NCBI GenBank assembly: GCA_020402865.1
Contig: JADBYT010000008.1
Location: 248,001 to 312,000, forward strand
Reading direction: 5' to 3'
DNA: 64,000 bases
Origin: Bacteroidota bacterium
Lineage (GTDB): Bacteria > Bacteroidota > Bacteroidia > Palsa-965
In this document: positions 7,671 through 28,159 of the stretch, in pieces
Position numbering within the stretch: the first letter of the stretch is position 1
How the letters are laid out: every line of letters begins with the position of its first letter
Notes under the pieces: model-generated
Databases searched by the model: none
Told to the model about the DNA's origin: nothing
The model's input: the letters and a program-made list of their open reading frames with translations, nothing else
Translations under genes and position numbers: made by a program

Positions 7671-9506
<1,836 letters not shown>

Positions 9507-9565: not shown

Positions 9566-11908
9566 ATGTCTTTACGGTTTTTCTCTCTGCTGTGCGGGCT
9601 ACTTGCCTTCTCCTGCCTTTATTCACAACAAGCTGACTTCCCGTTGATGTATTCGCACGGGAAGATTCCACGAAAATTTCTTATCAAACCCGAAGCGGCT
9701 GCAAAAGAAGAAATTGATGCGATTAAAGCACAATCAAAACGACTCACTCAGGCCGAGGTCGATTACATCTATATACGGGAATATACGTTTAGTCATTATA
9801 TCACAGAAGGAATAATTACTTATGGCGATGAGATAAGCAATTTCAGCCAACGAATTGTAAACCGCTTACTTGTAAATGATCCTGAGCTTAACAAAAAAAT
9901 CAACGTTTACCTTCTTCGTTCGTATGAAGCCCGCCTCGTATCGTTCGACAACGGAATTATTTTTGTGAGTACCGGACTGTTCTCGAAAATTGAAAATGAA
10001 GCTCAATTAGCCTATCTGCTGGCGCGGGAAATTATTCATATCCGCGAAAACCATGCGCGTGAAAACTACCTGAATACATACTCAGGCGAGAGTAGAAATA
10101 TCCGATATCAGGACAGGGTTTCGGTTTTCTCGGCAGAGCAGGAAGCTGTTACAGATAAAAAGGCTATTCGACTTTTTATTGATGCAGGGTATGCAATGGA
10201 GGAAAGCGTGAAATCACTGACCTTACTTTCATCTTTCGACCAGTGTTTCGGGAATATCAAATTTGACATTTCCTTTTTTGAGCATGATGATTACATTTTC
10301 CCGCTAAACTATCAACTGCAAGAGCTTGTTTTGGCGCCCGCAGACTCGCTGGCCATGCAACTGTTCCCTAATCTTAGCAACCGGATAAACGATCTGAAAA
10401 GCTACATTCAACTGCTTCAGCAGGCAGAAGGGAAATCAGCATTCGAGAATATTTCACAGCTGCAAGTTTGGGCACGCGAGGAAACCATACGCATGTATTG
10501 TATTGATCAAAAAATAAATCATTCGATATACGGCGCCTATGTGATTTTACAAACCGACAGCCAGAATAAAGCCGCCCGCCGCACAATTGCCTATTGCCTT
10601 GCCATAAAAGCAATTTACGAATCGCCGGACCATGCAACCTATTCCACCAATGTAATTGTACTAGAAAAAAATGCCGCATTTAAAGATTATTCAAAAAAGA
10701 GCACTGGAAATAAAGACGAAGAAGTTGCTGAAAAAGTAACACAGGCAGGAGAAGCTCAGCGTGTAAATCATTTTCTCACCAGTATGAGTCACCCTGAACT
10801 TACAATTCTTGCGTTAGATCATAACTGGGGGCTATATCATCAATATGCTACTGAAACAGATGCACTGAAAAGAGTTAAAATGCTGATGAATATCCTAAAA
10901 GCGAATTACGATCTCGGACTGATGGAGTTTTCGCACACTGCTTACCAACCTGTGTTGAATGAAAAAAGTGCCCCGGAAAATTTAACTCAGAACCCGCTTC
11001 CGAAACCAACAGGCAAACCTATAATTACGTTAGAACCACTGCAAGCAAAAGACGCATGGGGTACATACAAGGAAACTCAGGATAATAATCTGGAACAAAA
11101 GATGCAAGGGTATTCGATAAACGACCCTAACGGAGAAAAAGACAAAACATCAAAAATAATTCCCCCTGTAAAAGCAGTAACCTGGCGGAAAGCCGATCCT
11201 GAAAAACAATATGAGTCTGTAATATACAACTATTACGAATATGCGTTTGTAAGCTACATTCATGATGCTGAATTTATTAAGGCGTTTAATCGATCAGCAG
11301 ATAAAATTACAATGGAAAAAACATACAGGGATTTTACCCCTTATGTGGTGTATGAAATGAAGCACAACTCCGGATTGGGAAAAGATAAATTTATACCCGG
11401 TTACATTTACGGTTTAGAAAGACAATATAATTCACGCCTGGAACAGCTTACAATTAACAATGACGGATCGGAAGAAGTACGGAAATATCAGAAAGATGCA
11501 GTCTTCTCTTATTCAGACAACTATGCTAATGCTGCGTTTTACAGTGTACATAATTTAACTGAAAACGACACATTTGCATACTCCTATTACTGTATTTATC
11601 AAACCATACTCAGTGATTTATACAACCATCTTAAAGAAGACCGGTATATAGCACCCGACATTTGCGGAGTGCTCAGGAATAATGTGACCATTTTCTTTAA
11701 AACAAACATCATACTTTCCAGCTACGTCATTAACCAGTCACAATCTGATGGTCGATCAGCCTCCCGCATAACCACTACAGGCATAGACATGGATACCGGA
11801 CGAATAGTACTTTACTGGTATGAGGAAAACAGCATGCTTGCTAAAAGTTATTTGTTAAATACACATTATAGTAACATCAGAAAGAAAATAAGCTACCAGC
11901 CCAAATAA
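9566..11908 (+). CDS. Secreted M48-like protein, catalytically degenerate (REIIH)
   Basis: A 780-residue protein with a signal peptide (cleavage near YSQ) followed by HGKIPRKF, an N-terminal motif shared with its four paralogs in this window. The M48 peptidase region (about residues 50-230) keeps STGLF, ENEAQLAYLLA and the ExxxD motif with its Glu (EAVTD), but the zinc motif HExxH has become REIIH (bases 10025-10039), losing the first His ligand. The C-terminal ~500 residues share EAQRVNHFL..LALDHNW and DMDTG motifs with the paralogs and match no family I know. It is probably periplasmic and inactive or non-canonical. The second paralog follows, with its ATG 111 bases downstream. Confidence 0.8.
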   Translation: MSLRFFSLLCGLLAFSCLYSQQADFPLMYSHGKIPRKFLIKPEAAAKEEIDAIKAQSKRLTQAEVDYIYIREYTFSHYITEGIITYGDEISNFSQRIVNRLLVNDPELNKKINVYLLRSYEARLVSFDNGIIFVSTGLFSKIENEAQLAYLLAREIIHIRENHARENYLNTYSGESRNIRYQDRVSVFSAEQEAVTDKKAIRLFIDAGYAMEESVKSLTLLSSFDQCFGNIKFDISFFEHDDYIFPLNYQLQELVLAPADSLAMQLFPNLSNRINDLKSYIQLLQQAEGKSAFENISQLQVWAREETIRMYCIDQKINHSIYGAYVILQTDSQNKAARRTIAYCLAIKAIYESPDHATYSTNVIVLEKNAAFKDYSKKSTGNKDEEVAEKVTQAGEAQRVNHFLTSMSHPELTILALDHNWGLYHQYATETDALKRVKMLMNILKANYDLGLMEFSHTAYQPVLNEKSAPENLTQNPLPKPTGKPIITLEPLQAKDAWGTYKETQDNNLEQKMQGYSINDPNGEKDKTSKIIPPVKAVTWRKADPEKQYESVIYNYYEYAFVSYIHDAEFIKAFNRSADKITMEKTYRDFTPYVVYEMKHNSGLGKDKFIPGYIYGLERQYNSRLEQLTINNDGSEEVRKYQKDAVFSYSDNYANAAFYSVHNLTENDTFAYSYYCIYQTILSDLYNHLKEDRYIAPDICGVLRNNVTIFFKTNIILSSYVINQSQSDGRSASRITTTGIDMDTGRIVLYWYEENSMLAKSYLLNTHYSNIRKKISYQPK

Positions 11909-11983
11909 ACATACCTGCTACTGAGGAAATCCATGTTTACATTGCGCGTCAATACCAACCCCGCTACACCCGCACGAATTCAT

Positions 11984-12012
11984 TTTGAATTCTGCACTTT
12001 TTTGCATATTTG
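11984..12012 (+). promoter_or_regulatory. Possible internal promoter before the second M48 paralog
   Basis: TTTG at 11984-11987 and CATATTTG at 12005-12012 (seven of eight matches to TAnnTTTG) are separated by 17 bases. The ATG at 12020 follows closely, supporting it over an in-frame ATG at 11933 that lies upstream of this element. Confidence 0.5.
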
Positions 12013-12019
12013 TAACAAG

Positions 12020-14473
12020 ATGCTTAACCTCAAGAACAGCACCTCTTATTCATTTCTGGTTTTGTTTTGCGCACTGTTGCAAGGGCTTTCTGCACAGGCA
12101 CAATACAATGACTATTCATTAGTAAAGTCAAAAGGCGATATTCCCGCAGACTTTATTCAGCCGGTTGATGTGCGTACAAAAAACAGCATTCAACGGCTGG
12201 GGCTTCAATCGGTAAATGCGCAGAATTATGTCTGGGCCTCAGAAAGCGTATTTTCCTATTATGTGAATTCGGGTATGGTTACTTTGGGCGACAGTGTCAG
12301 CCTGCTTTGTACGCAGATAATTGACCGGCTCCTTGTTTCAAACAAAGCGTTGCGACAGAACCTCAATGTGTATCTCCTTCGTTCAAGCAAGCCAGAAATT
12401 TATACGTTCTACAATGGCAATATGCTTGTAAGTACGGGCATACTTGCCCGCACTGCCAATGAAGCGCAACTGGCCTACCTGATTGCACGCGAGATTATTG
12501 TGTACAGAAATATATTTGATGGCCGGCAGATTACTTCCACTAAGCTCAATTTCCAAAAAGACTCTCTTGATTTAGAATCAGCAGTTTTTACACGCTCGGA
12601 AGAAGAAGAAAGCGCCGCTGACCGCCAAGCCTTAAAAATGTATCTCGAAGCCGGATATGATGCTTCTGAGGCGATCACCGCGTTAAAACTGCTCTACAAC
12701 CCTGAAGCCAGCTTTGATGATGTGCCTTTTGATCTGAGTTTTTTTGAGCACGGTGACTATGTATTTCCGCCATCTTACCACTTAAAAGAACTGGTAGCCG
12801 GAGATACAAACTCGTTTAATGAACAAACTAACCTTCAGCTTTCACGACGAATTACTATTTTAAAATCACTCATCCAACAAGTTGAGGCTCCCGGAAATAA
12901 ATTTATTTTACAAACAGAGGCCGAGTTTATTTCGCTCAGCACACTGGCGAAACAGGAAGTAATGCGGCAATTCTTTATTGATCAGCAGCATGAGTACGCC
13001 ATTTATTCGGCATACCTGCTCCTGAAAAAAGACTCCACCTATCAGCCTGCCAAAAGTATTATTGCCCATAGTTTAAATACACTCGCCATCTACAAAACAC
13101 AATCAATACCGGAACCACCTCCCTTAATTTATATCGTTCCGCTGAAACCGGTTGTTAATTCTGTAAATACACCACCTGCTGTATATACAATTCAGCCCAC
13201 TTCTAATATTGCTGGCGAAGCTCAGCACATCAATTACCTTCTTCACCAGTTAAGTTATACCGAATTTTACATTCTCGCTCTTGACTGGCAATGGAAAAAC
13301 CTGAAAGCGTTAAAGAAAGCTGATAAATCAATTGAGCAGACACAGGTGAAACGATTGATGTGGATGTTAAAACACAATTCGGGTTTTTCCCATGTGGCAT
13401 TTTCTCCCGCTCCATTTAAACCAATTTCGCTGGGTGAAAAATATGAAGTAAGGGAAACAACTTCATTTACTTTGAACAGAAAGCCTTCCGTAACACTTAC
13501 GCCACCGTCGCAGCTTTTAAACAAATCGGTAATTGGAAGTGGTGCCCTTAGGGAAAAGCCCAAAGAAGCGCCTGAATTTTCTGCTACACCTAAAAAAAAC
13601 ATCGAACAGATCAGTACACAATACGACATCAAAAACAGTGAAGATGTGTATCAATCAAACACAAATACACTTCCTTTAAAAACAACTTATTTCAACGTAA
13701 AAAGCAGCCGCCTGATTTCCGATGAAAAGGCTATTGTACAATGGAAAGGTATGCCTGATGATTCGGCGTATAGTTATGCCTATGTATATTATCTCTATGC
13801 ATTTACCAGCCACATGAAAGACAGCACGTTTGTGGAAACATTCAGAAAGGCCGGGCCGCAAGGGAATGAAACACCATTGTCAGACTACAGTATGCGAAAT
13901 CGAATTGTATATGATAAAAGAAGTAAATACGGACTAGGAGCCGACACGGTTCTGATTGGGCGCATGCTTGCGGTGAATTACAGCGAAATTAAGCGAACCG
14001 GAACTATTGCTATGGGTGATGAACTTTTAGATGAATATACGCAGTACCAGAGGGAGGCTCTTCAGGTTGCTGCCGGGTATGAAAAGTGCTATCCGTTTAT
14101 ACCGGATTTATCTTCGATAAGCAGTACTGATGTTGCAAGCTATACCAATTGGTGCATGGTTAAAACCTGGCAACGCGAACATGATAATTATTCTGCATAC
14201 GGATTCTCACTACCTACATTTGCCTATACCAGTCTGGGCGATTCAGTAAGCAGGGCATTTCACACTCCTTACATTACCTATACCTACGCTGTGAGCTACC
14301 TGATGCGCTCTACGGTTCCCAAATCGCAGCTTGTTTCTCTGGTGTATGAATTACAAACCGGATACTTGGTGATGTATCTGCATGAAGAAAACAAACGTAC
14401 AGCCACCTTTGATATTCAGAAATGGTATTACCGGTTTTTGCTGGAAAAAACCAAATACCCGCGTTTGGATTAA
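12020..14473 (+). CDS. Secreted M48-like protein, catalytically degenerate (REIIV)
   Basis: 817 residues from the ATG at 12020, where a typical signal peptide begins (MLNLKNSTSYSFLVLF, cleavage near QAQ); an upstream ATG at 11933 would bury the signal peptide. It is homologous along its length to the other four M48 paralogs: GDIPADF after the signal peptide, NGNMLVSTGILA, NEAQLAYLIA, and a C-terminal GEAQHINYLL..LALDWQW. The HExxH motif is REIIV (12488-12502): both His ligands are gone, whereas the motif Glu and the downstream ExxxD (ESAAD) remain. This should not bind catalytic zinc in the usual way. The next paralog starts 27 bases after its stop, so they are probably co-transcribed. Confidence 0.8.
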   Translation: MLNLKNSTSYSFLVLFCALLQGLSAQAQYNDYSLVKSKGDIPADFIQPVDVRTKNSIQRLGLQSVNAQNYVWASESVFSYYVNSGMVTLGDSVSLLCTQIIDRLLVSNKALRQNLNVYLLRSSKPEIYTFYNGNMLVSTGILARTANEAQLAYLIAREIIVYRNIFDGRQITSTKLNFQKDSLDLESAVFTRSEEEESAADRQALKMYLEAGYDASEAITALKLLYNPEASFDDVPFDLSFFEHGDYVFPPSYHLKELVAGDTNSFNEQTNLQLSRRITILKSLIQQVEAPGNKFILQTEAEFISLSTLAKQEVMRQFFIDQQHEYAIYSAYLLLKKDSTYQPAKSIIAHSLNTLAIYKTQSIPEPPPLIYIVPLKPVVNSVNTPPAVYTIQPTSNIAGEAQHINYLLHQLSYTEFYILALDWQWKNLKALKKADKSIEQTQVKRLMWMLKHNSGFSHVAFSPAPFKPISLGEKYEVRETTSFTLNRKPSVTLTPPSQLLNKSVIGSGALREKPKEAPEFSATPKKNIEQISTQYDIKNSEDVYQSNTNTLPLKTTYFNVKSSRLISDEKAIVQWKGMPDDSAYSYAYVYYLYAFTSHMKDSTFVETFRKAGPQGNETPLSDYSMRNRIVYDKRSKYGLGADTVLIGRMLAVNYSEIKRTGTIAMGDELLDEYTQYQREALQVAAGYEKCYPFIPDLSSISSTDVASYTNWCMVKTWQREHDNYSAYGFSLPTFAYTSLGDSVSRAFHTPYITYTYAVSYLMRSTVPKSQLVSLVYELQTGYLVMYLHEENKRTATFDIQKWYYRFLLEKTKYPRLD

Positions 14474-14500
14474 CACACCCCTCAGATCAATATAAAGTCG

Positions 14501-16864
14501 ATGAAAAACTACCGGATCATTTTGCAACTGGCAATGGCACTCATGCCGATTGTAACAGTCGCCCAAACCCTCTTCCACTCGCATGGCACCCTGCCCGCCC
14601 CGCTTACCGGCAAGCCCGACGAGCGTGCAAAGAAAATGGTGGAAGAACGCAAAATGGAAAGCAGTCTGCTTGACGAGAGCGAAACGGCTTTCATTTACCT
14701 CACCGAATACTCGTTTGCCAATTTTGTAAACTCCGGCAAACTTACCGTGGGCGATTCGGTGAGCAACTATGCCGGGCGCATTCTCGACCGCCTGCTGGCG
14801 AAAGACCCGAAGCTGCGGAAGAAAATTACTGTGTACACCCTGCGCTCGACCGAGGTGAATGCGTTTATGATGGCCAACGGCGCCCTGCTGCTGAGCACCG
14901 GACTACTTGCGCATATCGAAAACGAGGCGCAGCTGGCGTTCATTCTCTCGCACGAAATTGTACACTTCCGCGAACGCCACAACCTGCAAGGCTTTCGCAA
15001 CCGCCAGCGTGCGGAGAGCCGCTACTTCGACCCCATGGCCGGTGTGCTGCGCTTTACGCGCGAACTTGAACTGGAGGCCGACGAGGAAGGCGTGAAAATT
15101 TTCCGCAATGCCGGCTATGCCCTGCACGAAGGCTACTCGGCGCTGAAAATGCTGGAACATCACAACTGGTCGTTCGGACAGATTCCGATGTACCCGAGCT
15201 TTTTTGAACACGGCGATTACCGCTTCCCGTCGTATTACACACTCGACAAAATTGCCGAAGTGGAAAAAGACGATGTGGAACGCGACGAATCGCGCAGCAC
15301 GCACCCGGGTCTCGATAAACGCCTGCGCGTAATTGCACCGCTGCTTGGCGATACATCCATGCGCACGCCGCTTTGGCTGGTGTCGGAAAACAGTTTCCGC
15401 ATTGTGCAGCAATTCTGCCGCCGTGAAGTGATTAACCTTTACCTCGAAGAGCGCAACTACCCCGAGGCCATTTACGGCGCATATATCCTGCTTCAGCAAG
15501 ACAGTAAGGATCAGTTTGCGCGTGAGGTTATTGGCAAATCGCTCTACAACCTCGCCATCTATTACAGCGAATCAGAGTTTTACACCTTGCCCGATGTATT
15601 TATCTACGAATCACATCCGCTGTTTAACAACAACAACGATGAGCCTGATTATGTAATGCAGGGCCCGGAAGAAGTACACGGCGAATGCCAGCGGCTGGTC
15701 CATTTTTTCCACCAGCTTTATCCGTTTGAATGGGCAGTACTGGCGCTCGACTGGAACTGGAAACTGAATGAAGAAAGTCAGTTTAACGATCAAACCAACC
15801 AACGCTGCCTCAACCTGATGGAAGTACTCAAAGCCTGGCATTATCTGAAGCCGGAGTATTTCAGCAAAAAAGCATTTTCGCCCACAGATGAAATGCAGCG
15901 CGATGTGTTTGACGGATTCCGCAGGCCAAAAGACATGACCAACACGCGCCTGCCGAAATTCTATCCCAAAAAAATACGCGAAGAAATTTATAACGAAAAT
16001 CGCGGGCGCACTTATTACAGTCTGGCCGAACTGCAGGAAACTATGGAACGTATGGAAAAAGAAATTAAATCGTCTATACGCGAGAAGAAAGAAGCAACGC
16101 TATACGACCCTGCCCTGCTGGTGTTGTACAAAGGCCCCTATCCTTCTGATTCCACGAAACGCGATTCGGTTTATTTCTACTACCGCTATGCGTTTGTTGA
16201 TTACATGAAGGCCAGCAATAAATTCCTGCTTACGTTTGAAGATGTGCGGGAAACTCCCCGCGAAAACCCTTACGATGATCTCGACATCACGGCTCGCAGT
16301 CAGCGCGGATTGTATGGCCCCGAAGGGCTTGGCCTCTCACGCGTAGCGGTGATGGAGCCGCAGGCATACTGGCTGAATGAAAATACAAACACCGGCGAAA
16401 CACAATACGACGGCGATAAAAGCGGCAAAATGTTTACCGCGCAGGAACGATCGCTCTTCAATGCGGCGAAAACGATGGGGGTAACTTTGGTGTATATGAA
16501 TCCGGAGAAAATGAACAGTTCCGACACTGCGCTTTACACCACCTACTGCATGCTGAAAACCTGGCTGAGCGAGCGCAGCGAGCTCGGCGGAAACTCACTC
16601 ATTACCAATACCGCCTATCCCGGTCTGGGCGACAGCATTGCCACGCGGCTTGGTACACCGTATGTAATGAGTAGTTTTTGCACTACCAAAAAAGTAAAAG
16701 GCAAAGGCACCTACACCCGGAATACGACCCTGATCTACGACCTGCGTACCGGGGAAATGGTCATGCTCCATCAGAATATTGATCGTGGTTCAGCGAAAGA
16801 AAACCGGCTGCTGAACTTTTTCAACAACGGCTTCAGAGCCATGAAACGTCCGAAAGACCGCTAA
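14501..16864 (+). CDS. Secreted M48-family zinc metallopeptidase (intact HEIVH)
   Basis: 787 residues with a signal peptide (cleavage near VAQ), the family motif HGTLPAPL, and an M48 domain with GLLAHIENEAQLAFILS, HEIVH (14951-14965) and the ELEAD motif supplying the Glu ligand, so the full zinc site is present. M48 enzymes of this exported type (BepA and LoiP in E. coli are known examples) act in envelope protein quality control; a similar role is inference. The C-terminal region (about residues 270-787) carries ECQRLVHFFHQL..LALDWNW and a final YDLRTGEMVML motif shared with the paralogs. It is the third gene of a head-to-tail set and is followed by a strong terminator. Confidence 0.87.
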   Translation: MKNYRIILQLAMALMPIVTVAQTLFHSHGTLPAPLTGKPDERAKKMVEERKMESSLLDESETAFIYLTEYSFANFVNSGKLTVGDSVSNYAGRILDRLLAKDPKLRKKITVYTLRSTEVNAFMMANGALLLSTGLLAHIENEAQLAFILSHEIVHFRERHNLQGFRNRQRAESRYFDPMAGVLRFTRELELEADEEGVKIFRNAGYALHEGYSALKMLEHHNWSFGQIPMYPSFFEHGDYRFPSYYTLDKIAEVEKDDVERDESRSTHPGLDKRLRVIAPLLGDTSMRTPLWLVSENSFRIVQQFCRREVINLYLEERNYPEAIYGAYILLQQDSKDQFAREVIGKSLYNLAIYYSESEFYTLPDVFIYESHPLFNNNNDEPDYVMQGPEEVHGECQRLVHFFHQLYPFEWAVLALDWNWKLNEESQFNDQTNQRCLNLMEVLKAWHYLKPEYFSKKAFSPTDEMQRDVFDGFRRPKDMTNTRLPKFYPKKIREEIYNENRGRTYYSLAELQETMERMEKEIKSSIREKKEATLYDPALLVLYKGPYPSDSTKRDSVYFYYRYAFVDYMKASNKFLLTFEDVRETPRENPYDDLDITARSQRGLYGPEGLGLSRVAVMEPQAYWLNENTNTGETQYDGDKSGKMFTAQERSLFNAAKTMGVTLVYMNPEKMNSSDTALYTTYCMLKTWLSERSELGGNSLITNTAYPGLGDSIATRLGTPYVMSSFCTTKKVKGKGTYTRNTTLIYDLRTGEMVMLHQNIDRGSAKENRLLNFFNNGFRAMKRPKDR

Positions 16865-16883
16865 GCACCACAACAATTTGCAG

Positions 16884-16929
16884 AAAACAGCGTTTCGTGA
16901 AAACAAACGCTGTTTTTGTTTTTTTAACG
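16884..16929 (+). terminator. Rho-independent terminator after the third M48 paralog
   Basis: AAAACAGCGTTT at 16884-16895 pairs exactly with AAACGCTGTTTT at 16905-16916 around a nine-base loop and is followed by a long T-run (TTTTTGTTTTTTT). It closes the first three-gene M48 unit. Confidence 0.9.
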
Positions 16930-17023
16930 ATCATTCTTTATGAATTCAGGCCTTAATCAGCATCATTCCTGTATCTTTAAGCATACCCATACATTATGAG
17001 GGTGTGTACCCCACAAAACTGCT

Positions 17024-19399
17024 ATGAAAAAATACCTTATTCTCCCGATTTTATTTATTTCTTCGCTCGCACTGGCGCAGCCTGCCGCTCCTGTGCGTGT
17101 GGGGCCGCTTCAGCCTGCCGGTAAACTCCCCGCCAGTTTTACCACGCCCAGTCACCTGATTGCCCAACAAGAGGCCGAACGCCGCAAAGCCGCCGGCGAT
17201 CCGATGGACGAAGGCGAAATGGAATTTACCACCGAGGTAAATTACTATTCGCAGCAACGCCTTACATCCGGCCTCATCCTTTACAACGATCCGATGAGCA
17301 CCTACATTACCGATGTAGCCCGGCTGCTGCTGAAAGACGATACTGCGCTGTTCAACAAGCTGCGCTTCTATGTGTATAAAACACCCGAGCCAAATGCATT
17401 TACATCGGCCACGGGTGTAATTATGATTACCGTAGGTATGCTGGCGCAGGTTGACAATGAGGCTCAGCTCGCCTACATCCTTTCGCATGAAATAATGCAC
17501 TACAAGCAGAAACACATGCTGAAAGGCTTCCGTAAACGCGAAAAGCTGGAAGAGCAAACCGGCAATGCGCCAAGCTATATGTGGAGCCGCAGTTACTTTC
17601 AGTTCACACGTGAGCATGAACTTGAAGCGGATGCAATGGGGTTTGATCTCTACAGCAAATCGAACTACCGGGCACACGAAGCCCTGCGCATGTTTGATGT
17701 GCTTGAATATTCGGATTTACCGTTTGACGATATGACGTTTGACACGCTGTGGTTTAACCGTGGCGATATGAAAGTACCCGGCGGCTATTTCCGTAAAGAG
17801 GTGGATCCGATTTATTCGGATGACAACTACGAAGACCGCAACAGCACACACCCCAACGTGCGCAAACGCCGTATGGCCCTTATCTCGTCGGTTGACAGTG
17901 TGAGTGAAGAAGGCCGGCAGCTTTACATTATTTCGAAAGAAAAGTTTATTCAGTTCCGCGAGCGTTCGCGTTATGAAGTGTGCCGCCTGCACATGCTTGT
18001 GCGCGATTATCCCGAAGCCATTTACTGCGCCTACATGCTGCTGCAGAAGCATCCGAACGATATTTATCTCGAAAAGATGATCGGTTATGCGCTGTTTAAC
18101 CTTACCACCTACAGCCAGACCAAGAGCCAGGGCAATATGTTTTTCGACCCCTCGCAAATGTTTATGAGCTATCGTGGCGGCCGTTATTCAAGACTCAGCA
18201 CGGGCGGTTTTTATCGTTTGCCCAACTGGGAAAAAATGACCGGACAGCAGCAGCAGCTGTTTCACCTGTTTGATAAACTGGAGCCCGACGAATTAACTGT
18301 ACTTACCCTTACCTACAACTGGGATTTGTATCGTGCCGATACTACCGACAGGTTTCAGGCGCAGCTTTGCGACAGTTTGTTTTCCATGCTGGTGTTTAAG
18401 CAAAACCTGCCACGCAGCTATTTCTCCACAATTTCGGCTGAAGCTGCGCGACAGAAACTGCGTGACGACTCATTGCAGCGTGCAAAAGATGTGGGCGAAA
18501 CCGGTGACTCGAAATACTCTCGACTCGACAAATTCAAACTCAATTCAGACAAAGAGCGTTTTGTAAAGTTTGCGTTTGTGGATTTACTCAAAGACTCGCT
18601 TTTTATTGAACGTTTCAATTATTACACCGCGCAACGCACCAGTTTTGTGGATGCCGACGAAACACCCGAATGGCTGCTTCGTCGCGGAATGAGCAAGAAG
18701 GAAAGGGAGGAATGGAAAAAATACCGTGAAGAATCAGGGTGTGAAATAGACAGGCTCGTGGTGATTTGTCCGGAATATGAAACATACCAGCAAAAGAAAC
18801 GCAAGGAGCGTGAACTGGAGCAGGATTATACGGCAAGTGAAAACGGACAGGTATCGCTTTGCGGCGTGATTCGCCGTGAGGCTTCAGCTCAAGGCGTACA
18901 AACCATTTTACTTTCACCGTTTGAAATGGACAGCCTCGACACTGATTCGTTTGCGGCGATGGCCACATTGAATGAATGGTTTTTTGAACGCCTGCGTCAT
19001 GGAAACAACCGTTACACCATGACGTTGAACAACAAACACGAAACTGATTCAATTGCGGCCTTGTACAACGTGCGCTACATCATGTTTACTGCGGTAGAAT
19101 CGGCCACACGCAAACGCATCCAGCGCCCGGTGCTTTACACTGTAACCTGTGTTATTTTCCCTCCTGCGCTTTACAAACTGTTCATACCGCAGGTACGCTA
19201 TCAGTTCGAATCGGCCGTGCTTGATTTGAAAACCGGCGAAGTGATTTATTACAATTACGAGATAAAGCGCAAAGGCAAGGAAAAAGAGCAGACCAACAAA
19301 TACTACAACAAGCTCTTCAAGAAACTGAAAGCGAAAAAACTGCCCAAACCTCTACCGCCCAAAGAAGAAGTACCACCCGAAGAAGCGCATAAACAGTAA
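17024..19399 (+). CDS. Secreted M48-family zinc metallopeptidase (intact HEIMH)
   Basis: 791 residues, signal peptide with cleavage near ALAQ, then AGKLPASF, the shared mature N-terminus. The peptidase domain has GMLAQVDNEAQLAYILS, HEIMH (17486-17500) and HELEADAMG, so all zinc ligands and the catalytic Glu are present. The C-terminal domain is homologous to the other paralogs (QQQLFHLFDKL..LTYNW; LDLKTGEVIYY) and ends in a Lys/Pro/Glu-rich tail. A -7-like TATCTTTA lies at 16972-16979. The 3' end overlaps the next gene by one base (TAATG), so the two are translationally coupled. Probably acts in the periplasm or at the outer membrane. Confidence 0.87.
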   Translation: MKKYLILPILFISSLALAQPAAPVRVGPLQPAGKLPASFTTPSHLIAQQEAERRKAAGDPMDEGEMEFTTEVNYYSQQRLTSGLILYNDPMSTYITDVARLLLKDDTALFNKLRFYVYKTPEPNAFTSATGVIMITVGMLAQVDNEAQLAYILSHEIMHYKQKHMLKGFRKREKLEEQTGNAPSYMWSRSYFQFTREHELEADAMGFDLYSKSNYRAHEALRMFDVLEYSDLPFDDMTFDTLWFNRGDMKVPGGYFRKEVDPIYSDDNYEDRNSTHPNVRKRRMALISSVDSVSEEGRQLYIISKEKFIQFRERSRYEVCRLHMLVRDYPEAIYCAYMLLQKHPNDIYLEKMIGYALFNLTTYSQTKSQGNMFFDPSQMFMSYRGGRYSRLSTGGFYRLPNWEKMTGQQQQLFHLFDKLEPDELTVLTLTYNWDLYRADTTDRFQAQLCDSLFSMLVFKQNLPRSYFSTISAEAARQKLRDDSLQRAKDVGETGDSKYSRLDKFKLNSDKERFVKFAFVDLLKDSLFIERFNYYTAQRTSFVDADETPEWLLRRGMSKKEREEWKKYREESGCEIDRLVVICPEYETYQQKKRKERELEQDYTASENGQVSLCGVIRREASAQGVQTILLSPFEMDSLDTDSFAAMATLNEWFFERLRHGNNRYTMTLNNKHETDSIAALYNVRYIMFTAVESATRKRIQRPVLYTVTCVIFPPALYKLFIPQVRYQFESAVLDLKTGEVIYYNYEIKRKGKEKEQTNKYYNKLFKKLKAKKLPKPLPPKEEVPPEEAHKQ

Positions 19400-19896
19400 T
19401 GCCCAACGATTTTGAAGCCATCCACCGCCGCTTTCGCACTGCCCTTGAAAAAGGCACACCGGGAGCGGCGGCGCTTGCTACACTATGCGACGAGCTGGGG
19501 CTTATACGCACGGGCTCAGTCTTTCGAATGGCGCCCGAAATAAGTCAGGCCTACGCCATTGCCTCCGGCCACAAACCCATCGAAATTCTCATCAGCCCCG
19601 AAATCCTTGCCGATACATTCGACTTTGGTCTGCTCACACGCATACTCGCACACGAGCTTTTGCACGTGCAGCAGCGCACGCGCATATTCCCCATGAAAGA
19701 CCACAATGAGCGCGAATTTGTGGCCTATGCCGATACGCTTCTCCGCACTGATCTTCCGCCTATCGGCTCATTGTATGTGAAAAAGGAGTTTTTGAAAAAG
19801 GGATTGAGTTATTATCCGCAATTATCAAAGTGGAATCAGTGGTGGTACCGGGATGTGAAGGCGGAACTGGAAAAATATGGAAAGATGCTGGGGTAA
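19399..19896 (+). CDS. Small HELLH-motif putative metallopeptidase coupled to the M48 gene
   Basis: 165 residues, no signal peptide. The centre holds HELLHVQQ (HExxH at 19651-19665) followed about ten residues later by EREFVAYAD, whose Glu could be a third zinc ligand. The HExxHxxQ pattern is reminiscent of short gluzincin-like domains such as DUF4157, but the rest of the protein does not let me name a family. Its start codon overlaps the stop of the M48 gene by one base, so the two products are likely made together although only one is exported. Whether it is an active peptidase is unknown. Confidence 0.65.
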   Translation: MPNDFEAIHRRFRTALEKGTPGAAALATLCDELGLIRTGSVFRMAPEISQAYAIASGHKPIEILISPEILADTFDFGLLTRILAHELLHVQQRTRIFPMKDHNEREFVAYADTLLRTDLPPIGSLYVKKEFLKKGLSYYPQLSKWNQWWYRDVKAELEKYGKMLG

Positions 19897-19973
19897 AGAT
19901 CGTAACGCTCCGGCAAATCCGGCTATCGAATTTCGCTTCAATGGGCTTGTCCCTGCAAGCAAAACACGATTGA

Positions 19974-20576
19974 TTATTTGGGTTCACCAGGCCCGAAATA
20001 CTTCACGCCGCAATATGCAAAACAGGATTGCAGCAACTCATATTTACCTGTGCAGAAAGTCCCCCATACCGAATCGGGAAGGTTGCTTTTGAAGCCCCGG
20101 CACTCCAGACAGCATTCAAAATAATACTTCACCCGCCCCCGACTGTCTTCAAACAATATCGCATGCCGGGGTTCATAACAACCGTATTGCACTTCTTCGA
20201 TTAAAGTGGTTTTTGGGGAATAATTGTAATTGTACAGCACATTCGTAAGGCTGTCTGTTTTAACCGAATCAAGAATAATATTATCAATAACATATTGTTT
20301 TTGGAGTACAGAGTCTTTCACAAGAGCCTTTACACCAATCATATATTTTGAAAACGAAATCAGGCGTACAGTTAATTTTTCACTGAATGGTGCACGTTGT
20401 AAACGCTGGCTGAAGCTCAGCGTTCCATTCAGATAGCACTGATTATCGGAAGTCTCTGCAGTTGGCAGTGGCGGAGGCGGAAGGCGTTCGCCTGTTTGCC
20501 TTCGCAAACAAGAACCCAAAAGCAGCAACGCCATAATGACTAATGAACCGGCAAGATGCGGAAAGAGTACACGCAT
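19974..20576 (-). CDS. Putative lipoprotein of unknown function
   Basis: 200 residues. The N-terminal hydrophobic segment ends in the lipobox LLGSC, followed by Arg/Pro-rich residues typical of an exported lipid-anchored protein. The C-terminal third is Cys-rich (FECCLECRGF, GTFCTGKYE, LQSCFAYC), which suggests disulfides or metal binding. I recognise no domain. It is the last gene of a tight unit with the beta-barrel gene (6-base gap) and the fifth M48 peptidase, and converges with the HELLH gene. Confidence 0.7.
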   Translation of the reverse strand: MRVLFPHLAGSLVIMALLLLGSCLRRQTGERLPPPPLPTAETSDNQCYLNGTLSFSQRLQRAPFSEKLTVRLISFSKYMIGVKALVKDSVLQKQYVIDNIILDSVKTDSLTNVLYNYNYSPKTTLIEEVQYGCYEPRHAILFEDSRGRVKYYFECCLECRGFKSNLPDSVWGTFCTGKYELLQSCFAYCGVKYFGPGEPK

Positions 20577-20582
20577 CGGGGT

Positions 20583-21284
20583 TTACAATAAAATCCCTAC
20601 TCCGAAAAACACCGAAAACGCCCGGCGCATACCGAAATCGCGCTGAAAATCGGATGCGGTGAAAACCGGATCTTCGTTTGCACTGATGTTCAGCACATAC
20701 GGTACACTGAAACGCAAACCGGTGTTGGCCACCACACGTTCCCAAAACAACATTTGTGTACCAAAGGCAAACTGCGCCTGTAATACGGTTTGTGTTTCGG
20801 GCTTGCTGCCGTTTATGTAAAGCGGTACATCAAGAGTGTTGGTTACATCGTTATTGTATTTGGCCTGTGCGTACACAAGCTCGGCATCCCAGAATTTACC
20901 AATGGGTGCAATGCCTCCACGGCCTTTACGGAAAGTGCGGAACACCATCGACATCGTTTGCCCGTCGAGTTTGGTGCCAAAATATTCTTCAGCCGCGCCG
21001 TTGAGCGAATAGGTATTGCCTACATCCATATTAAAACGATTGTAGCTCACCCCCAGCTGCGTGCGCCGGCTGATGATACAATGCAGCGCACCGCCGTACT
21101 GATAATTATAAACAAAACGCTGGTCAGAAAGCAAACCAAACGGCGTGGACGAAGCAAAATTGAATGGCATGTATGAACCCTCGGCCTGCACAATGATGCG
21201 GTGACCAAGATAACCGCCTTTGCCTTGTGCAAAGGATGTATAGGAAGCTGCAAGCAGCAGCGTGATAAAGAGAATACGTTTCAT
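20583..21284 (-). CDS. Outer-membrane beta-barrel protein linked to the fifth M48 peptidase
   Basis: 233 residues with a signal peptide (MKRILFITLLLAASYTSFAQ) and barrel-like strands: HRIIVQAEGSYMPFNF, RTQLGVSYNRFNMDV, AQFAFGTQMLFWERVV, NTGLRFSVPYVLNI and a last strand RAFSVFFGVGILL. No enzymatic motif. It begins six bases after the M48 gene stops and is followed six bases later by the lipoprotein gene, so the three are almost certainly one transcript. A partnership between an exported peptidase and a barrel is suggestive of barrel assembly or quality control but unproven. Confidence 0.72.
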   Translation of the reverse strand: MKRILFITLLLAASYTSFAQGKGGYLGHRIIVQAEGSYMPFNFASSTPFGLLSDQRFVYNYQYGGALHCIISRRTQLGVSYNRFNMDVGNTYSLNGAAEEYFGTKLDGQTMSMVFRTFRKGRGGIAPIGKFWDAELVYAQAKYNNDVTNTLDVPLYINGSKPETQTVLQAQFAFGTQMLFWERVVANTGLRFSVPYVLNISANEDPVFTASDFQRDFGMRRAFSVFFGVGILL

Positions 21285-21290
21285 GGCTGC

Positions 21291-23615
21291 TTACTTTTTG
21301 GGGTTGGAGAGTTGACGCATGAGATCATACACATGCAAACGCAAACGCGATTTGGTGTGACGCTGATTACTCATTTCTGTATTCCGGCTGTACACCAGCT
21401 TACCGGTCGATACATCGTACACGATTGTCACAAAGGTTACGCTTTCTGTGGGTGTAAACAGACGGTAAATTACATGCGGTGCAATGGGCAGAATGAGTGC
21501 GCCCGCAGCACGTATGGCCTGCACACGTCGTTTATCGCGATACACATAGCAGGCTGTCCACATAAAATAATTGGTGCCGTACTTTTTGGCCAGCGCCTGC
21601 ATGTCTTCCTGTGAGTATGGCATGAGTTTAGACGGACGCACATCTTCGCGCACGGAAAGCCAGCGGCTGGCGGTATTCATATCGTTAAATGCCGCAGCTG
21701 ATGATGTATCAAGCACAGTCTGATCAAGCAGCGTAAGGTTGATGTTGCACAATGCGGCCGAACGCCGGAGCTCGGCCACAAATTCGGCACGGCCTTCAAG
21801 CGAGGCTGTAATATCAATCGGCACCCGCTCTTTACGCTGATCATACACGGCAAACTGCGGATCCACAAGTACCACACGCTGTATGCCCTGCGGCCCCAGC
21901 AGTTCCGACTTCCGGCGGCGGCGGTATCTGCGCTCTTCAGTTCCGCTCATCTGGTCGAGAATTTCGTTTACCTGCTTCACACTGTCGGCAAACGCGGTCG
22001 ATTTTTTAAACATCTCCACAAAACGGGCATCCTTCAACTCCTCAATAAATGCAAACGACCAGTATTCCACATCGGTATAGATGGAATCAATATCATAATT
22101 ATCCACCGCGCACTGAAAACGATCGCGGGGCGAATCAGACTTCGGCTTTTTCTTCAGTGTAGTATCGGCCGCAGCAATATTACCCAACCGGATCCAGAGC
22201 GAATCGCTGCTCTGGAAATCACTTTGCTTCATCTCGTGGAAAAAGGTAAGCTCGCGGAATAGTCCGGTTGTCCACGTGGCTACATCAGCATCGTTCGGAT
22301 ACTTCAAATGTACAGCCCAGGCATAACGCAACGCCAGCACATTCCACGCTTCCGACTCGGTTTTATTTACCAGTCTGTTAAAGCGGCCCATCTCGCCGGT
22401 GGGCTTTTCACTGCTGCCCATATCACCACCGGTAATCACAAAAATATTTCCCAGCAATGACGCCAGATCGCCAAAATCGAATGTCATGTTTTTATCCAGT
22501 ACACTGCCGTAAAGGGCGCGTGCCATTTCTTTTTCGAGATACGGATTGCCGGGATAATACTGCAGCATGGCATAGGTCATGTAAACAGCATCGCGGTAGT
22601 TGCCTTCATCGCTGTGCAGGGCGCATTCTTCAAAACGTGCCATCATGCGCACACGGTAAAACTGTTTTTCCGACACAAGAAAGTACGCGCCCGTTGTATC
22701 GGTTGCGCTTTTAAACTTGCGCATCATGCCTCTGCGGCGCTTGCCTACACTGGGGTGCGTAGCCAGATCGTTGTCGCCGTCTTCTTCGTCAACCTTGTAG
22801 GGCTTAATTGTGTCGGCCTGATATTTTGACGGAAGCAGGAAATACTGGCCTTCAAAAAATGAGCGGGTAAAGGTGGTGTCGGTAAACGGGAAATCAGCCT
22901 GCGCAAGCAAATCGAAACCTTTTACCGCCGCATGCGGATCGTAGCCCGACTTGAGCATGAGTTCAAATCCTTCTTCGTCGGCTTGTGTTTCCTGCGTGCG
23001 CGAGTAGCTGTGTTTTTTGTAAAAACGGTTGTTCAGCGTAATGCCTTCATACTGCTCGGTGCCTGTGCGCATTTTTTCGGTTTCGAGAAAACCTGTAACC
23101 ACATGGCGACGCTTGAAGTGAATAATTTCGTGCGCCAGTACAAACGCCAGCTCGGCTTCATTCCGCACGCGGGTAAGCAGCCCCACAGTTACAAAAATTA
23201 CGCCCTGATCAGTGGCAAATGCGTTAACAACCGGCGTGCGCAGAATATAGAAATGCAGCTTTTTGCGCAACTCCGGATCGTGTACCAGCAACGAGTCGGC
23301 CACCTGATTTACAAAAAGCCCCATCGAATCATTCACCAGCACTTCGCCACTGAAACGCATCTGATCAACCTGAAAATTGGTGAGCAGATAAAATTCGTCC
23401 TCCGCATCCTGTATAGACTGCTGCTGGCTTTTATCTACCTTCTCAAGGTCGTTTTTATACTTTTCGGCTGTGGGGGTCACAAAATCAGTCGGCAGCGGAC
23501 CATTGGAAACCGGCCGGCGGAAATTGCGCATATCGGGCAGCTGGGCAAACAACGCCGAAGCAAACAAACAGCCAATAAATGCAGCAAGCAGCTGCAAACG
23601 GGGAGAGTTTATCAT
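21291..23615 (-). CDS. Secreted M48-family zinc metallopeptidase (intact HEIIH), reverse strand
   Basis: 774 residues from the ATG at 23615, where the signal peptide begins (MINSPRLQLLAAFIGCLFA, cleavage near FAQ); an upstream in-frame codon at 23660 lies before the probable promoter. Shared mature motif NGPLPTDF; peptidase domain with GLLTRVRNEAELAFVLA, HEIIH (23118-23132) and ETQADEEGF, so the zinc site is complete. The C-terminal domain matches the paralogs (EMGRFNRLVNK..LALRYAW; YDVSTGKLVYS). It is the most divergent member and the only one on the minus strand, heading an operon with a beta-barrel and a lipoprotein. Confidence 0.86.
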   Translation of the reverse strand: MINSPRLQLLAAFIGCLFASALFAQLPDMRNFRRPVSNGPLPTDFVTPTAEKYKNDLEKVDKSQQQSIQDAEDEFYLLTNFQVDQMRFSGEVLVNDSMGLFVNQVADSLLVHDPELRKKLHFYILRTPVVNAFATDQGVIFVTVGLLTRVRNEAELAFVLAHEIIHFKRRHVVTGFLETEKMRTGTEQYEGITLNNRFYKKHSYSRTQETQADEEGFELMLKSGYDPHAAVKGFDLLAQADFPFTDTTFTRSFFEGQYFLLPSKYQADTIKPYKVDEEDGDNDLATHPSVGKRRRGMMRKFKSATDTTGAYFLVSEKQFYRVRMMARFEECALHSDEGNYRDAVYMTYAMLQYYPGNPYLEKEMARALYGSVLDKNMTFDFGDLASLLGNIFVITGGDMGSSEKPTGEMGRFNRLVNKTESEAWNVLALRYAWAVHLKYPNDADVATWTTGLFRELTFFHEMKQSDFQSSDSLWIRLGNIAAADTTLKKKPKSDSPRDRFQCAVDNYDIDSIYTDVEYWSFAFIEELKDARFVEMFKKSTAFADSVKQVNEILDQMSGTEERRYRRRRKSELLGPQGIQRVVLVDPQFAVYDQRKERVPIDITASLEGRAEFVAELRRSAALCNINLTLLDQTVLDTSSAAAFNDMNTASRWLSVREDVRPSKLMPYSQEDMQALAKKYGTNYFMWTACYVYRDKRRVQAIRAAGALILPIAPHVIYRLFTPTESVTFVTIVYDVSTGKLVYSRNTEMSNQRHTKSRLRLHVYDLMRQLSNPKK

Positions 23616-25373: not shown

Positions 25374-26285
25374 TCATCTTACCTTACCAAACCCGAAAAC
25401 AAGTTTGAAATAAAATTTTGTATTGAACGTATCATAATAAAACGGGCCTTCAAAACGCTCCGCAAATACAGGCTCTATGGGTTGAGCCGGGGAAAGATAA
25501 AGATCACCGGTATTGGTAACAAACGCATAAATATCATCAAACGGCAACGGACTTTCTTCTTCAGGCAAGAGGTAAAGCGACTGCACGCCATTTTCGGTAA
25601 TTACCTTGCCGTAGGGTGAAATGCCGTGCATGGCTCTGAAACTTTTTTGAAGTTGCGGAATGCCGAAATAGACATCACAAAACACAAGTTTACCCCGGGC
25701 ATTTATCTTTCTTACCCCCGCACGCACCACAGGCTGCATCCAAAACTGCATTGTATTACCACTTATTTGCTGCGAAAAAAACACACCACCCGCCAATGCC
25801 TGCCAGCCTAAACCCACATGAAAACCTTTGTTTTTCCAGGCCTTCCTCCCCGACCCGGCACCAAAATCGTACGACAAAAAAACAGGCAGCGAAAATGTGC
25901 CAAATGCAGATGTAATGTTAAAATCATTCAGGTCAAATGCAGGCGCCGCATTCAACGACAATGCGGAATAAGGCCCAGCAATCAATAACGGATAACGCAG
26001 GTTGCAGGTAGCCCCGAGCAGAATACGCCCGCCATTGGGCACAAACCGGTCAACCTTTATAAACGAATGCACATACGGCGGTAAAAAAGGCTGCGTATCA
26101 TAACGAAAAAGCGGATAATATGCGGGCATACGTACTGCTGGACCGCTTATTGCGCCGGAGAGAAAGGAAAAACCCCATACATGTGTAAGGCGTGCCTGCG
26201 CCGCAAGTGAAACACCACCGCAACACATGAAGAGCACAAGCAGCACACGAAAACGCTGACTACATAAATAGCAGTTTGTAGTCAT
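25374..26285 (-). CDS. Outer-membrane protein paralog 1 of 3
   Basis: 303 residues, signal peptide near the N-terminus (LLVLFMCCGGVSLAAQ), then barrel-like segments shared with the next two genes: FSFLSGAISGPA, ILLGATCNLRYPLL, SAFGTFSLPVFLSYDF, GFHVGLGWQALAGG, and a final FYFKLVFGFGKV. The GFHVGLG[WY] motif and the closing YFK[IL]V[FL]G strand are the clearest family marks. No known family is recognised. Its ATG overlaps the stop of paralog 2 by one base (TGATG), so it is the third gene of a coupled operon. Confidence 0.7.
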   Translation of the reverse strand: MTTNCYLCSQRFRVLLVLFMCCGGVSLAAQARLTHVWGFSFLSGAISGPAVRMPAYYPLFRYDTQPFLPPYVHSFIKVDRFVPNGGRILLGATCNLRYPLLIAGPYSALSLNAAPAFDLNDFNITSAFGTFSLPVFLSYDFGAGSGRKAWKNKGFHVGLGWQALAGGVFFSQQISGNTMQFWMQPVVRAGVRKINARGKLVFCDVYFGIPQLQKSFRAMHGISPYGKVITENGVQSLYLLPEEESPLPFDDIYAFVTNTGDLYLSPAQPIEPVFAERFEGPFYYDTFNTKFYFKLVFGFGKVR

Positions 26286-27190
26286 CAGCGGAATGCGTAA
26301 TTATCTATGCGTTGCCTGGCATTGTGCTCCTTCTCAAGTTTACGGGTAGCGCGTCCGTTATGAATATACAAGCCAAATACAATTTTGAAAGAGTAAGAGG
26401 AGTATGCCATTTCCTGCATGCCTTTCCGGCGTTCAAAAATATCTTCGTAAGTGCCATTCCCGGCAAGGCCAAGCGGCACGAACTGAGGTTCGCCGTCTTC
26501 ATTCTTTTCGTATTGCGAAAGTTGAAATTCGCCCGCCAGATCAGCCTCCGTGAGAAAGCCACCCGGTGTGCGCTGAATTCTGATTGTGCTGAAATAAAAA
26601 TCAACAAAGTAATGCTTAGCCCTGAAACCTGCCCTGAACACCGGCATTGTCCAAAACTGAGAACCGTAGTCGGAGATTAATGTATTGTCTGTTTTCGTTT
26701 TCACAAGGCCGGCTCCGAGAAACTCCCAACCCACCCCCAAATGCCAGCCGTAGTTTTTTTCGGAATACCGGGTGGCCTTGTAGCCAAAATTAAAATCGGC
26801 AAGCAGTGGCAACGAAAAATGGCCCAAACGGCCAAGCAGATAAAAAGAGGTAACGCCAAGTGTAGGTGCTGTGCTCAGCGAAAAAGCACTGTTTTTATTT
26901 GGTTCCAGATAATTCCAGCGCAGGTTGTAGGTGGCGCTGAAAATAATTAAGCCCATATCACTGTAAAGCCGGTTTACTGTTTCGGTGCGAAGAAAAACAG
27001 GATCACCGCCTTGTACAGGGCGCTGATAAATACTGATGACCGACTGGATGTTTTGTGCAGGAGGCGCCACAATGCCCGACAGGATACTTACACCTGCTGA
27101 ATGAAAAAATAACCGCTCGTGCTGCGCACTGATTTTACCGGCGAACAGCAGAAGCCATACTGCGATAAATGCAAACGCCGGTTTACACAT
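26285..27190 (-). CDS. Outer-membrane protein paralog 2 of 3
   Basis: 301 residues, signal peptide ending near ISAQ. Same plan as its neighbours: HSAGVSILSGIVAPPA, IIFSATYNLRWNYL, GRLGHFSLPLLADFNF, GWHLGVGWEFLGAGL, MPVFRAGFRAKHYFVDFYFS, and SFKIVFGLYI near the end, followed by a basic tail. Substitutions are spread across the whole length, so the duplication is old. It starts three bases after paralog 3 stops. Confidence 0.7.
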   Translation of the reverse strand: MCKPAFAFIAVWLLLFAGKISAQHERLFFHSAGVSILSGIVAPPAQNIQSVISIYQRPVQGGDPVFLRTETVNRLYSDMGLIIFSATYNLRWNYLEPNKNSAFSLSTAPTLGVTSFYLLGRLGHFSLPLLADFNFGYKATRYSEKNYGWHLGVGWEFLGAGLVKTKTDNTLISDYGSQFWTMPVFRAGFRAKHYFVDFYFSTIRIQRTPGGFLTEADLAGEFQLSQYEKNEDGEPQFVPLGLAGNGTYEDIFERRKGMQEMAYSSYSFKIVFGLYIHNGRATRKLEKEHNARQRIDNYAFR

Positions 27191-27193
27191 TGG

Positions 27194-28159
27194 TTATTGC
27201 TTTGGCGTTGTGGAATGAAAGGCAAAATCAGGTACAAGATGGTTTTGAACGGGATTTTGACGGTTCTTGCGACCTTCGAGGGTAATGCCAAGTACAATTT
27301 TAAAATAGTATTGCGACCATACATTTTCATAGCGGTAATTACCGGCCTGATAATTATCAACGTACCCACCCTGATCGGGCGGCACAGGAGGCATAATCTG
27401 ATCACCGGGTTTTACATACGTGCCACCCGTACCGCCGCCGCCAGTACCGCCACCCGTGCCGCCAGCACCCACCGTGTAAGGTGTTGAAGTAACGCCGGCA
27501 ACGGTTTTTTGCCTGTACATGCGACTGAAATACGCATCCACAAATGCACTGCGGCCATTGGGCAGCAAAAAACGCACACCGCCCCGAACCATGGGCACAG
27601 ACCATACCTCCATGCCAAAATTGGCATTATTGTCGGCCGGCCCGCCATTCACTAGTCCGCTTGCAATCCATTGATAGCCTACACCCACATGAAAACCCCG
27701 GTTGGCGCCATTATGCTTCACCGCATTGTGCCCGCGATTGTAATCGGCGAAAACAGGTGCGGTAACATGACCAATGCGCTGTGATGTATTGAAAATACTG
27801 GACCCGGCTGAAAAAGGAGTACTGATGGAAATGGAATTGAGATACCCCATTTCAATCAGATTAAGCCGGAGATCATACGTTACACTCAGCACAATAGGGC
27901 CGCGATCGGCATACAAACGCTGATACTCTACCGAATAGGCATACGTAGGTGTATAGTTTGGCGACGTAGGGCGATTAAATAAATCGAGTGTGGCTGTGCC
28001 GTATTTTGAAGGCGCACCAATGGATCCGAGAAATGGCGTAATACCAATCGAATGAAAAATCCGCTTGCTGAACTGGGCATGAGTTTCGGTAACCGAAAAT
28101 GTCAAAACCAGTATCAGAATGCAAATAAACCTGTTTGTTAATCTGAAATCGATGTGCAT
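27194..28159 (-). CDS. Outer-membrane protein paralog 3 of 3, with glycine-rich insert
   Basis: 321 residues, signal peptide ending near THAQ. It shares with paralogs 1 and 2 the segments HSIGITPFLGSIGAPS, IVLSVTYDLRLNLI, RIGHVTAPVFADYN and GFHVGVGYQWIASGL. Between the barrel-like part and the last strand (YYFKIVLGITL) it carries a Gly/Thr-rich stretch (GAGGTGGGTGGGGTGG, bases around 27425-27475) followed by a Pro-rich stretch, absent from the other two; it would form a flexible extracellular loop. As the first gene of the operon it probably carries the promoter upstream (28160-28304), which I could not define. Confidence 0.7.
   Translation of the reverse strand: MHIDFRLTNRFICILILVLTFSVTETHAQFSKRIFHSIGITPFLGSIGAPSKYGTATLDLFNRPTSPNYTPTYAYSVEYQRLYADRGPIVLSVTYDLRLNLIEMGYLNSISISTPFSAGSSIFNTSQRIGHVTAPVFADYNRGHNAVKHNGANRGFHVGVGYQWIASGLVNGGPADNNANFGMEVWSVPMVRGGVRFLLPNGRSAFVDAYFSRMYRQKTVAGVTSTPYTVGAGGTGGGTGGGGTGGTYVKPGDQIMPPVPPDQGGYVDNYQAGNYRYENVWSQYYFKIVLGITLEGRKNRQNPVQNHLVPDFAFHSTTPKQ

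Follow-up and report, generated by a model that had tools for sequence, protein, structure and literature searches.

Zinc-less members of an exported M48 family of Bacteroidia trace to repeated replacement of one histidine by arginine

The window analysed here, a stretch of 64,000 nucleotides from a Bacteroidota genome, carries five paralogous genes for exported proteins of the M48 peptidase fold (P1 to P5, Table 1). Two of them, P1 and P2, are supported by their sequences as pseudoproteases, which lost their catalytic residues, kept intact reading frames and remained under purifying selection after the loss. On the evidence of the family tree, zinc-less members of this family have at least five separate origins, each through the same His-to-Arg swap. 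Our favoured explanation, to which we give slightly less than an even chance, is that P1 to P5 belong to a family of BepA-like envelope proteins for outer-membrane barrels, in which P1 and P2 would be protease-dead barrel chaperones or structural partners.

Table 1. Position of the genes and zinc-site motifs of the array and of its flanking genes in the window.
Feature	Position	Strand	Details
ubiD-family gene flanking the array	7671-9506	+	Pfam; neighbour of P4 orthologs in genus-mates
P1, exported M48-fold pseudoenzyme (REIIH)	9566-11908	+	780 aa open frame; Pfam; alignment
REIIH replacing HExxH in P1	10025-10039	+	Arg codon CGG
P2, pseudoenzyme (REIIV)	12020-14473	+	817 aa; 846 aa from alternative upstream ATG at 11933
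REIIV replacing HExxH in P2	12488-12502	+	Arg codon CGC
P3, active-type member (HEIVH, ELEAD)	14501-16864	+	787 aa open frame; Pfam; alignment
HEIVH zinc motif of P3	14951-14965	+	
P4, active-type member (HEIMH, ELEAD)	17024-19399	+	791 aa; Pfam; alignment; tree
HEIMH zinc motif of P4	17486-17500	+	
OMPB, putative outer-membrane barrel partner of P5	20583-21284	-	6 bp downstream of P5
P5, active-type member (HEIIH, ETQAD, THP plug)	21291-23615	-	774 aa; start taken as the ATG at 23615
HEIIH zinc motif of P5	23118-23132	-	

The first-pass annotation had described five full-length exported paralogs of 774 to 817 residues between 9566 and 23615, and both the open frames and an alignment over their whole length bear this out. 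The paralogs align end to end, with 20-30% identity to P1 and about 31% between P1 and P2. P1 (29.2 bits), P3 (63.9), P4 (57.9) and P5 (80.3) score above the gathering cut-off of 20.3 bits of the Pfam family Peptidase_M48 (PF01435), whereas P2 falls under it with 16.1 bits (E = 0.01). The zinc motifs read as claimed, with HExxH intact in P3, P4 and P5 and replaced in the two others, and the GxxPxx[FL] and ExxxD motifs are common to all five proteins. The STGLL/NEAQLA block that had also been ascribed to the five is less uniform: STGLL, STGIL or STGLF is limited to P1-P3, whereas P4 and P5 present TVGML and TVGLL, and P5 reads NEAELA. P1 to P4 lie in one direction with short intergenic gaps and P5 on the opposite strand; a scan of the array for promoters and terminators gave counts no higher than in shuffled sequence. 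GC3 is 0.39 and 0.41 in P1 and P2 (9566-14473) against 0.56-0.63 in P3 to P5, a difference that may stem from drift in codon usage or from acquisition of the two genes from a relative of low GC.

According to the structural models, proteins of the family consist of an M48 domain similar to that of BepA, followed by a helical (TPR-like) middle and, at the C-terminus, a domain resembling TolB-N, CsgG and PelC. P5 was predicted with AlphaFold2 from an alignment of 63 rows (pLDDT 90.7, pTM 0.89), and a structure search matched the N-terminal part of the model to BepA (6ait and 6sar, Z 15-17) and to 3c37 (Z 16.9). In the whole-protein model, residues 572-774 match HpaA, PelC, FlgT, CsgG and TolB (Z 8-10, aligned across 112-150 residues), and the last 200 residues match LptE-like proteins at Z ~7. 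What had been taken for a single C-terminal domain of about 500 residues is thus, in the P5 model, a helical part followed by a separate alpha/beta domain. The model of P1 is weaker (pLDDT 75, with a disordered stretch at 467-545); it retains the BepA-like part (Z 16-18; 17.6) and the C-terminal fold (Z ~7.8).

The closest solved structures are those of BepA (YfgC), the periplasmic M48 protease/chaperone of E. coli, for which casein is a known test substrate and which shares with the family an M48 fold followed by helices and, with its active members, HExxH, ExxxD and the HPx4R plug. On the contrary, the family proteins are longer, carry a C-terminal domain absent from BepA, are paired with a small barrel-like protein (OMPB, see below) and include natural zinc-less members; the five proteins score only 21.9 to 68.7 bits against the NCBIfam BepA equivalog NF052400, whose cut-off is 570. 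Similarly, residues 572-774 of P5 have the fold of envelope domains of the CsgG/PelC/TolB-N/LpoB type, but here the fold is fused to an M48 domain, and sequence identity is 4-16%.

The zinc-site losses were located by comparison with the BepA reference residues (PMC7950410, PMC8423444). P3, P4 and P5 keep HExxH, ExxxD and the HP plug residues. In P5 numbering, P1 carries H162R and has Phe instead of the plug histidine (H287F), and it retains the motif Glu, the second His and the Glu and Asp of ExxxD; P2 carries H162R and H166V and has also lost H171 and the plug HP. The edge-strand Asn-Ala is gone from both proteins, neither of which has an equivalent of the plug residue His246 of BepA. One could imagine that P1 still binds metal or cuts through an altered site, as the motif Glu, second His and ExxxD Glu persist in P1 and in the zinc-less member L029; this is scarcely credible, since Arg is not expected as first zinc ligand and the losses extend to the plug His in P1 and to both motif His in P2.

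In a census of family members of at least 600 aa, HExxH is intact in 183 of 194 sequences. The other 11, a number that is low if anything because HE-containing patterns served as seeds for the public-collection share of the census (but not for the class-wide genome search), lack the zinc site, and all of them have Arg at the first His (position 162 of P5). They are P1, P2, a REIAH copy on contig C11 of the same genome, where a second family member reads HEIAH, L029 (genome G022), L180/L250/L251 from three species of one genus, L195/L210, and L239/L240 from genomes G252 and G147. The Asp of ExxxD (P5 position 213) is retained in 11/11, and other losses concern the motif Glu in two, the second His in seven and the ExxxD Glu in eight of these proteins. 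The idea that the motif Glu is kept in every pseudoenzyme had to be rejected, as L239 and L240 read RLVVH and RLIAQ.

On a tree inferred with the zinc-site columns masked, the zinc-less state requires five label changes, four of which are forced by well-supported branches, and a tree uniting the 11 zinc-less members in a single clade is rejected (p-AU 0.0002). This tree and the retention of the motif in most members also indicate that HExxH is ancestral, as the first-pass annotation had presumed. The Arg codons at the first-His position differ (CGG, CGC, AGA), which fits a long-term retention of Arg. As a separate observation, the plug His of HPx4R is replaced by Glu in one member that keeps HExxH (L197:5429-7783).

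Whether the zinc-less copies are maintained or decaying was addressed with codon substitution models. Pairwise NG86 dN/dS gave no usable value for P1, P2, the C11 pair and L029, whose synonymous sites are saturated; branch codon models were run for this reason, and only the rejection of omega = 1 is read from them. Neutrality was rejected on the branches of P1, P2, the C11 copy and L029 (2dL 168, 98 and 56, the omega values themselves being uninterpretable through saturation), on the end branches of P1 and P2 alone (2dL 163), and singly for P1 (2dL 31) and P2 (2dL 15.5). In three sister species, an orthologous pseudoenzyme reading RE-I-[AT]-K has an omega of 0.028, against 0.033 for the active paralog, and the OMPB gene beside the pseudoenzyme has 0.024, which shows that pseudoenzymes of the family and their OMPB neighbours are kept. 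Together with the intact frames, these results agree with the earlier view that the REII copies are maintained rather than decaying. That P1 and P2 are instead duplicates under relaxed selection, heading for loss, is very improbable: their protein branches are longer (1.3 vs 0.5-0.9 in P3-P5), their GC3 is lower and both are absent from the six genus-mates, occurring in this genome alone, but frames of 780-817 codons remain open at a mutual divergence that has saturated synonymous sites, and omega = 1 is rejected for each of the two separately.

P1 and P2 are sisters (support 100/99), outside of which branch P3, their nearest active-type relative, and then L048 of genome G006. A protein search of genome contigs found no ortholog of P1. 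P4 has orthologs in five genus-mates, adjoining ubiD in several of them, and orthologs of P5 also occur in genus-mates; P1-P3 are thus inserted here between ubiD and P4. More widely, a profile built from 24 members matched 112 of the 396 near-complete genomes drawn from the class at E <= 1e-30, i.e., about 28% of the sampled Bacteroidia, and the public genome collection contains at least 529 stretches encoding relatives. In a phylum-wide draw of 296 genomes only the genome of the window was matched, at the stricter cut-off of E 1e-80. Close relatives are metagenome-assembled Bacteroidota; the family also occurs in culturable isolates, among them Fulvivirga sediminis and Acidiluteibacter ferrifornacis (loci L137 and L081).

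No published account of the family or of its convergent His-to-Arg loss was found in the open-access literature, nor any description there of M48 pseudoproteases or of an M48-barrel pair in Bacteroidota, and M48 is absent from a 2024 review of metallopeptidase pseudoenzymes. The array itself, of which the first-pass annotation knew no description, is not unique: in other genomes, two or three active copies stand in tandem.

The most constant neighbour of the family is OMPB, which is found directly downstream on the same strand in 86 of the 125 family genes with enough flanking sequence (median gap 1 bp), and upstream or within three genes in 13 more. OMPB proteins are of 220-280 aa, exported through a signal peptide, and share an N-terminal PGYLGKR signature and an internal IAPxGxY motif; the C-terminal residue is F or Y in 62 of 98 sequences. 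They are predicted from these features to be barrels located in the outer membrane. No Pfam family was found for OMPB, a profile search against solved structures gave no relative, and its weak NCBIfam matches, none above cut-off, include the T9SS protein PorG, OmpW and another outer-membrane barrel family. The likeness to small barrels of the PorG/OmpW type is thus a very weak profile similarity of single members, from which OMPB differs by its own signature. In many tandem arrays the M48C-OMPB pair recurs 1:1, among them those of L078 (three copies of the pair), L076 and L010 (two copies each), and some arrays order two M48C then two OMPB. Among the 11 zinc-less members, OMPB lies directly downstream in six, is adjacent and divergent in one and is not adjacent in four. 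In the genome of the window, which has three OMPB genes in total, none adjoins P1-P4.

Such pairing bears on the role of the pseudoenzymes. The first-pass annotation proposed a multi-subunit or regulatory system in which inactive members could scaffold or inhibit active ones; the pseudoenzymes would then be subunits or regulators that form heteromers with P3-P5, as in the mitochondrial processing peptidase (MPP) alpha/beta. Inactive MPP alpha is known to partner an active metallopeptidase (PMC11266112), the close and co-directional P1-P4 are consistent with co-expression, and an HExxH member is present in every genome that encodes a pseudoenzyme. However, the three sister species, as well as G147 and G252, encode their pseudoenzymes on other contigs than the active genes, several of these genes having an OMPB of their own, and arrays pair M48 with OMPB rather than active with inactive copies; we thus regard such heteromers as unlikely, though worth serious consideration. 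MPP likewise has active and inactive metallopeptidase homologs in one cell (PMC11266112), but it is an M16 enzyme of another fold and family whose heterodimer is proven, whereas heteromers of the present family are hypothetical. Since most family genes, active or dead, are paired 1:1 with OMPB, a barrel partnership is at least as likely as one between M48 proteins.

The same pairing with a putative barrel could also point to an export or secretion assembly, in which a CsgG/PelC-like ring and a barrel would meet at the outer membrane and the M48 domain, inactive in some copies, would act as a gate or as a maturation protease. Ring-forming PelC, CsgG and FlgT are indeed among the best folds for residues 572-774 of P5. 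This assembly is nevertheless improbable, as the fold is shared by TolB-N and LptE-like lipoproteins, which are monomeric, and so does not imply oligomerisation, and as no secreted substrate is linked to the M48-OMPB pair.

In the favoured explanation, that of BepA-like proteins for barrels, P3-P5 would act on OMPB-type barrels by analogy with the action of BepA on LptD. In active copies, a folding intermediate would be held at the edge strand near the zinc site, after which its membrane insertion would be helped or the barrel cut. P1 and P2 would result from duplication of their lineage and loss of the zinc site by His-to-Arg replacement, the plug His and further contacts disappearing later, and would retain only the holding or scaffolding part. 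The co-retention of the two residues suggests that Arg probably stands in for the zinc His as contact of the ExxxD Asp, which is invariably retained, so that the fold would survive metal-free. In BepA itself (PMC8423444, PMC7950410), an edge strand and a His switch link two separate functions, one chaperone-like and one proteolytic.

Some points nevertheless count against this explanation. Protease-dead BepA E137Q has weak chaperone-like activity only and is dominant negative (PMC7950410, PMC8423444), so that a protein that no longer cuts is not necessarily a good chaperone; in addition, P1-P4 adjoin no OMPB, the edge strand of P1 and P2 is altered, and OMPB is without a solved sequence relative. 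The chaperone role, and any barrel partner of P1 and P2, are thus put forward as suggestions. The broader proposal of a Bacteroidia envelope module made of M48, a TolB/CsgG-like domain and a dedicated barrel, with convergent chaperone-only versions in which Arg is locked onto the ExxxD Asp, is more tentative, and we consider it rather doubtful as a whole.

BepA is a single protein that both aids and destroys outer-membrane barrels, two activities that are hard to separate in E. coli. Repeated natural loss of cutting, with the protein and often its barrel partner retained, would provide natural separation-of-function variants, and five origins with one replacement residue represent convergent pseudoenzyme formation in the bacterial envelope. 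Given its frequency in the sampled Bacteroidia, the module is probably also a common envelope part, left without a Pfam or NCBIfam name.

Several neighbouring genes deserve mention. At 19399-19896, a protein of 165 aa with HELLH and no Pfam family above cut-off overlaps the end of P4, and G006 has its ortholog, with HEVLH, next to that of P4. On contig C11 (L010:4992-7351), two proteins of 570 and 216 aa with unassigned family are encoded upstream of the REIAH/OMPB pair, and related genes also precede an M48-OMPB pair in L043 and L049. Finally, positions 25374-28159 of the window encode three tandem paralogous exported proteins of about 300 aa with 28-30% identity, which a search of 20 relatives found in no other genome; they match in number the genome-specific P1-P3, and a link between the two sets is possible.
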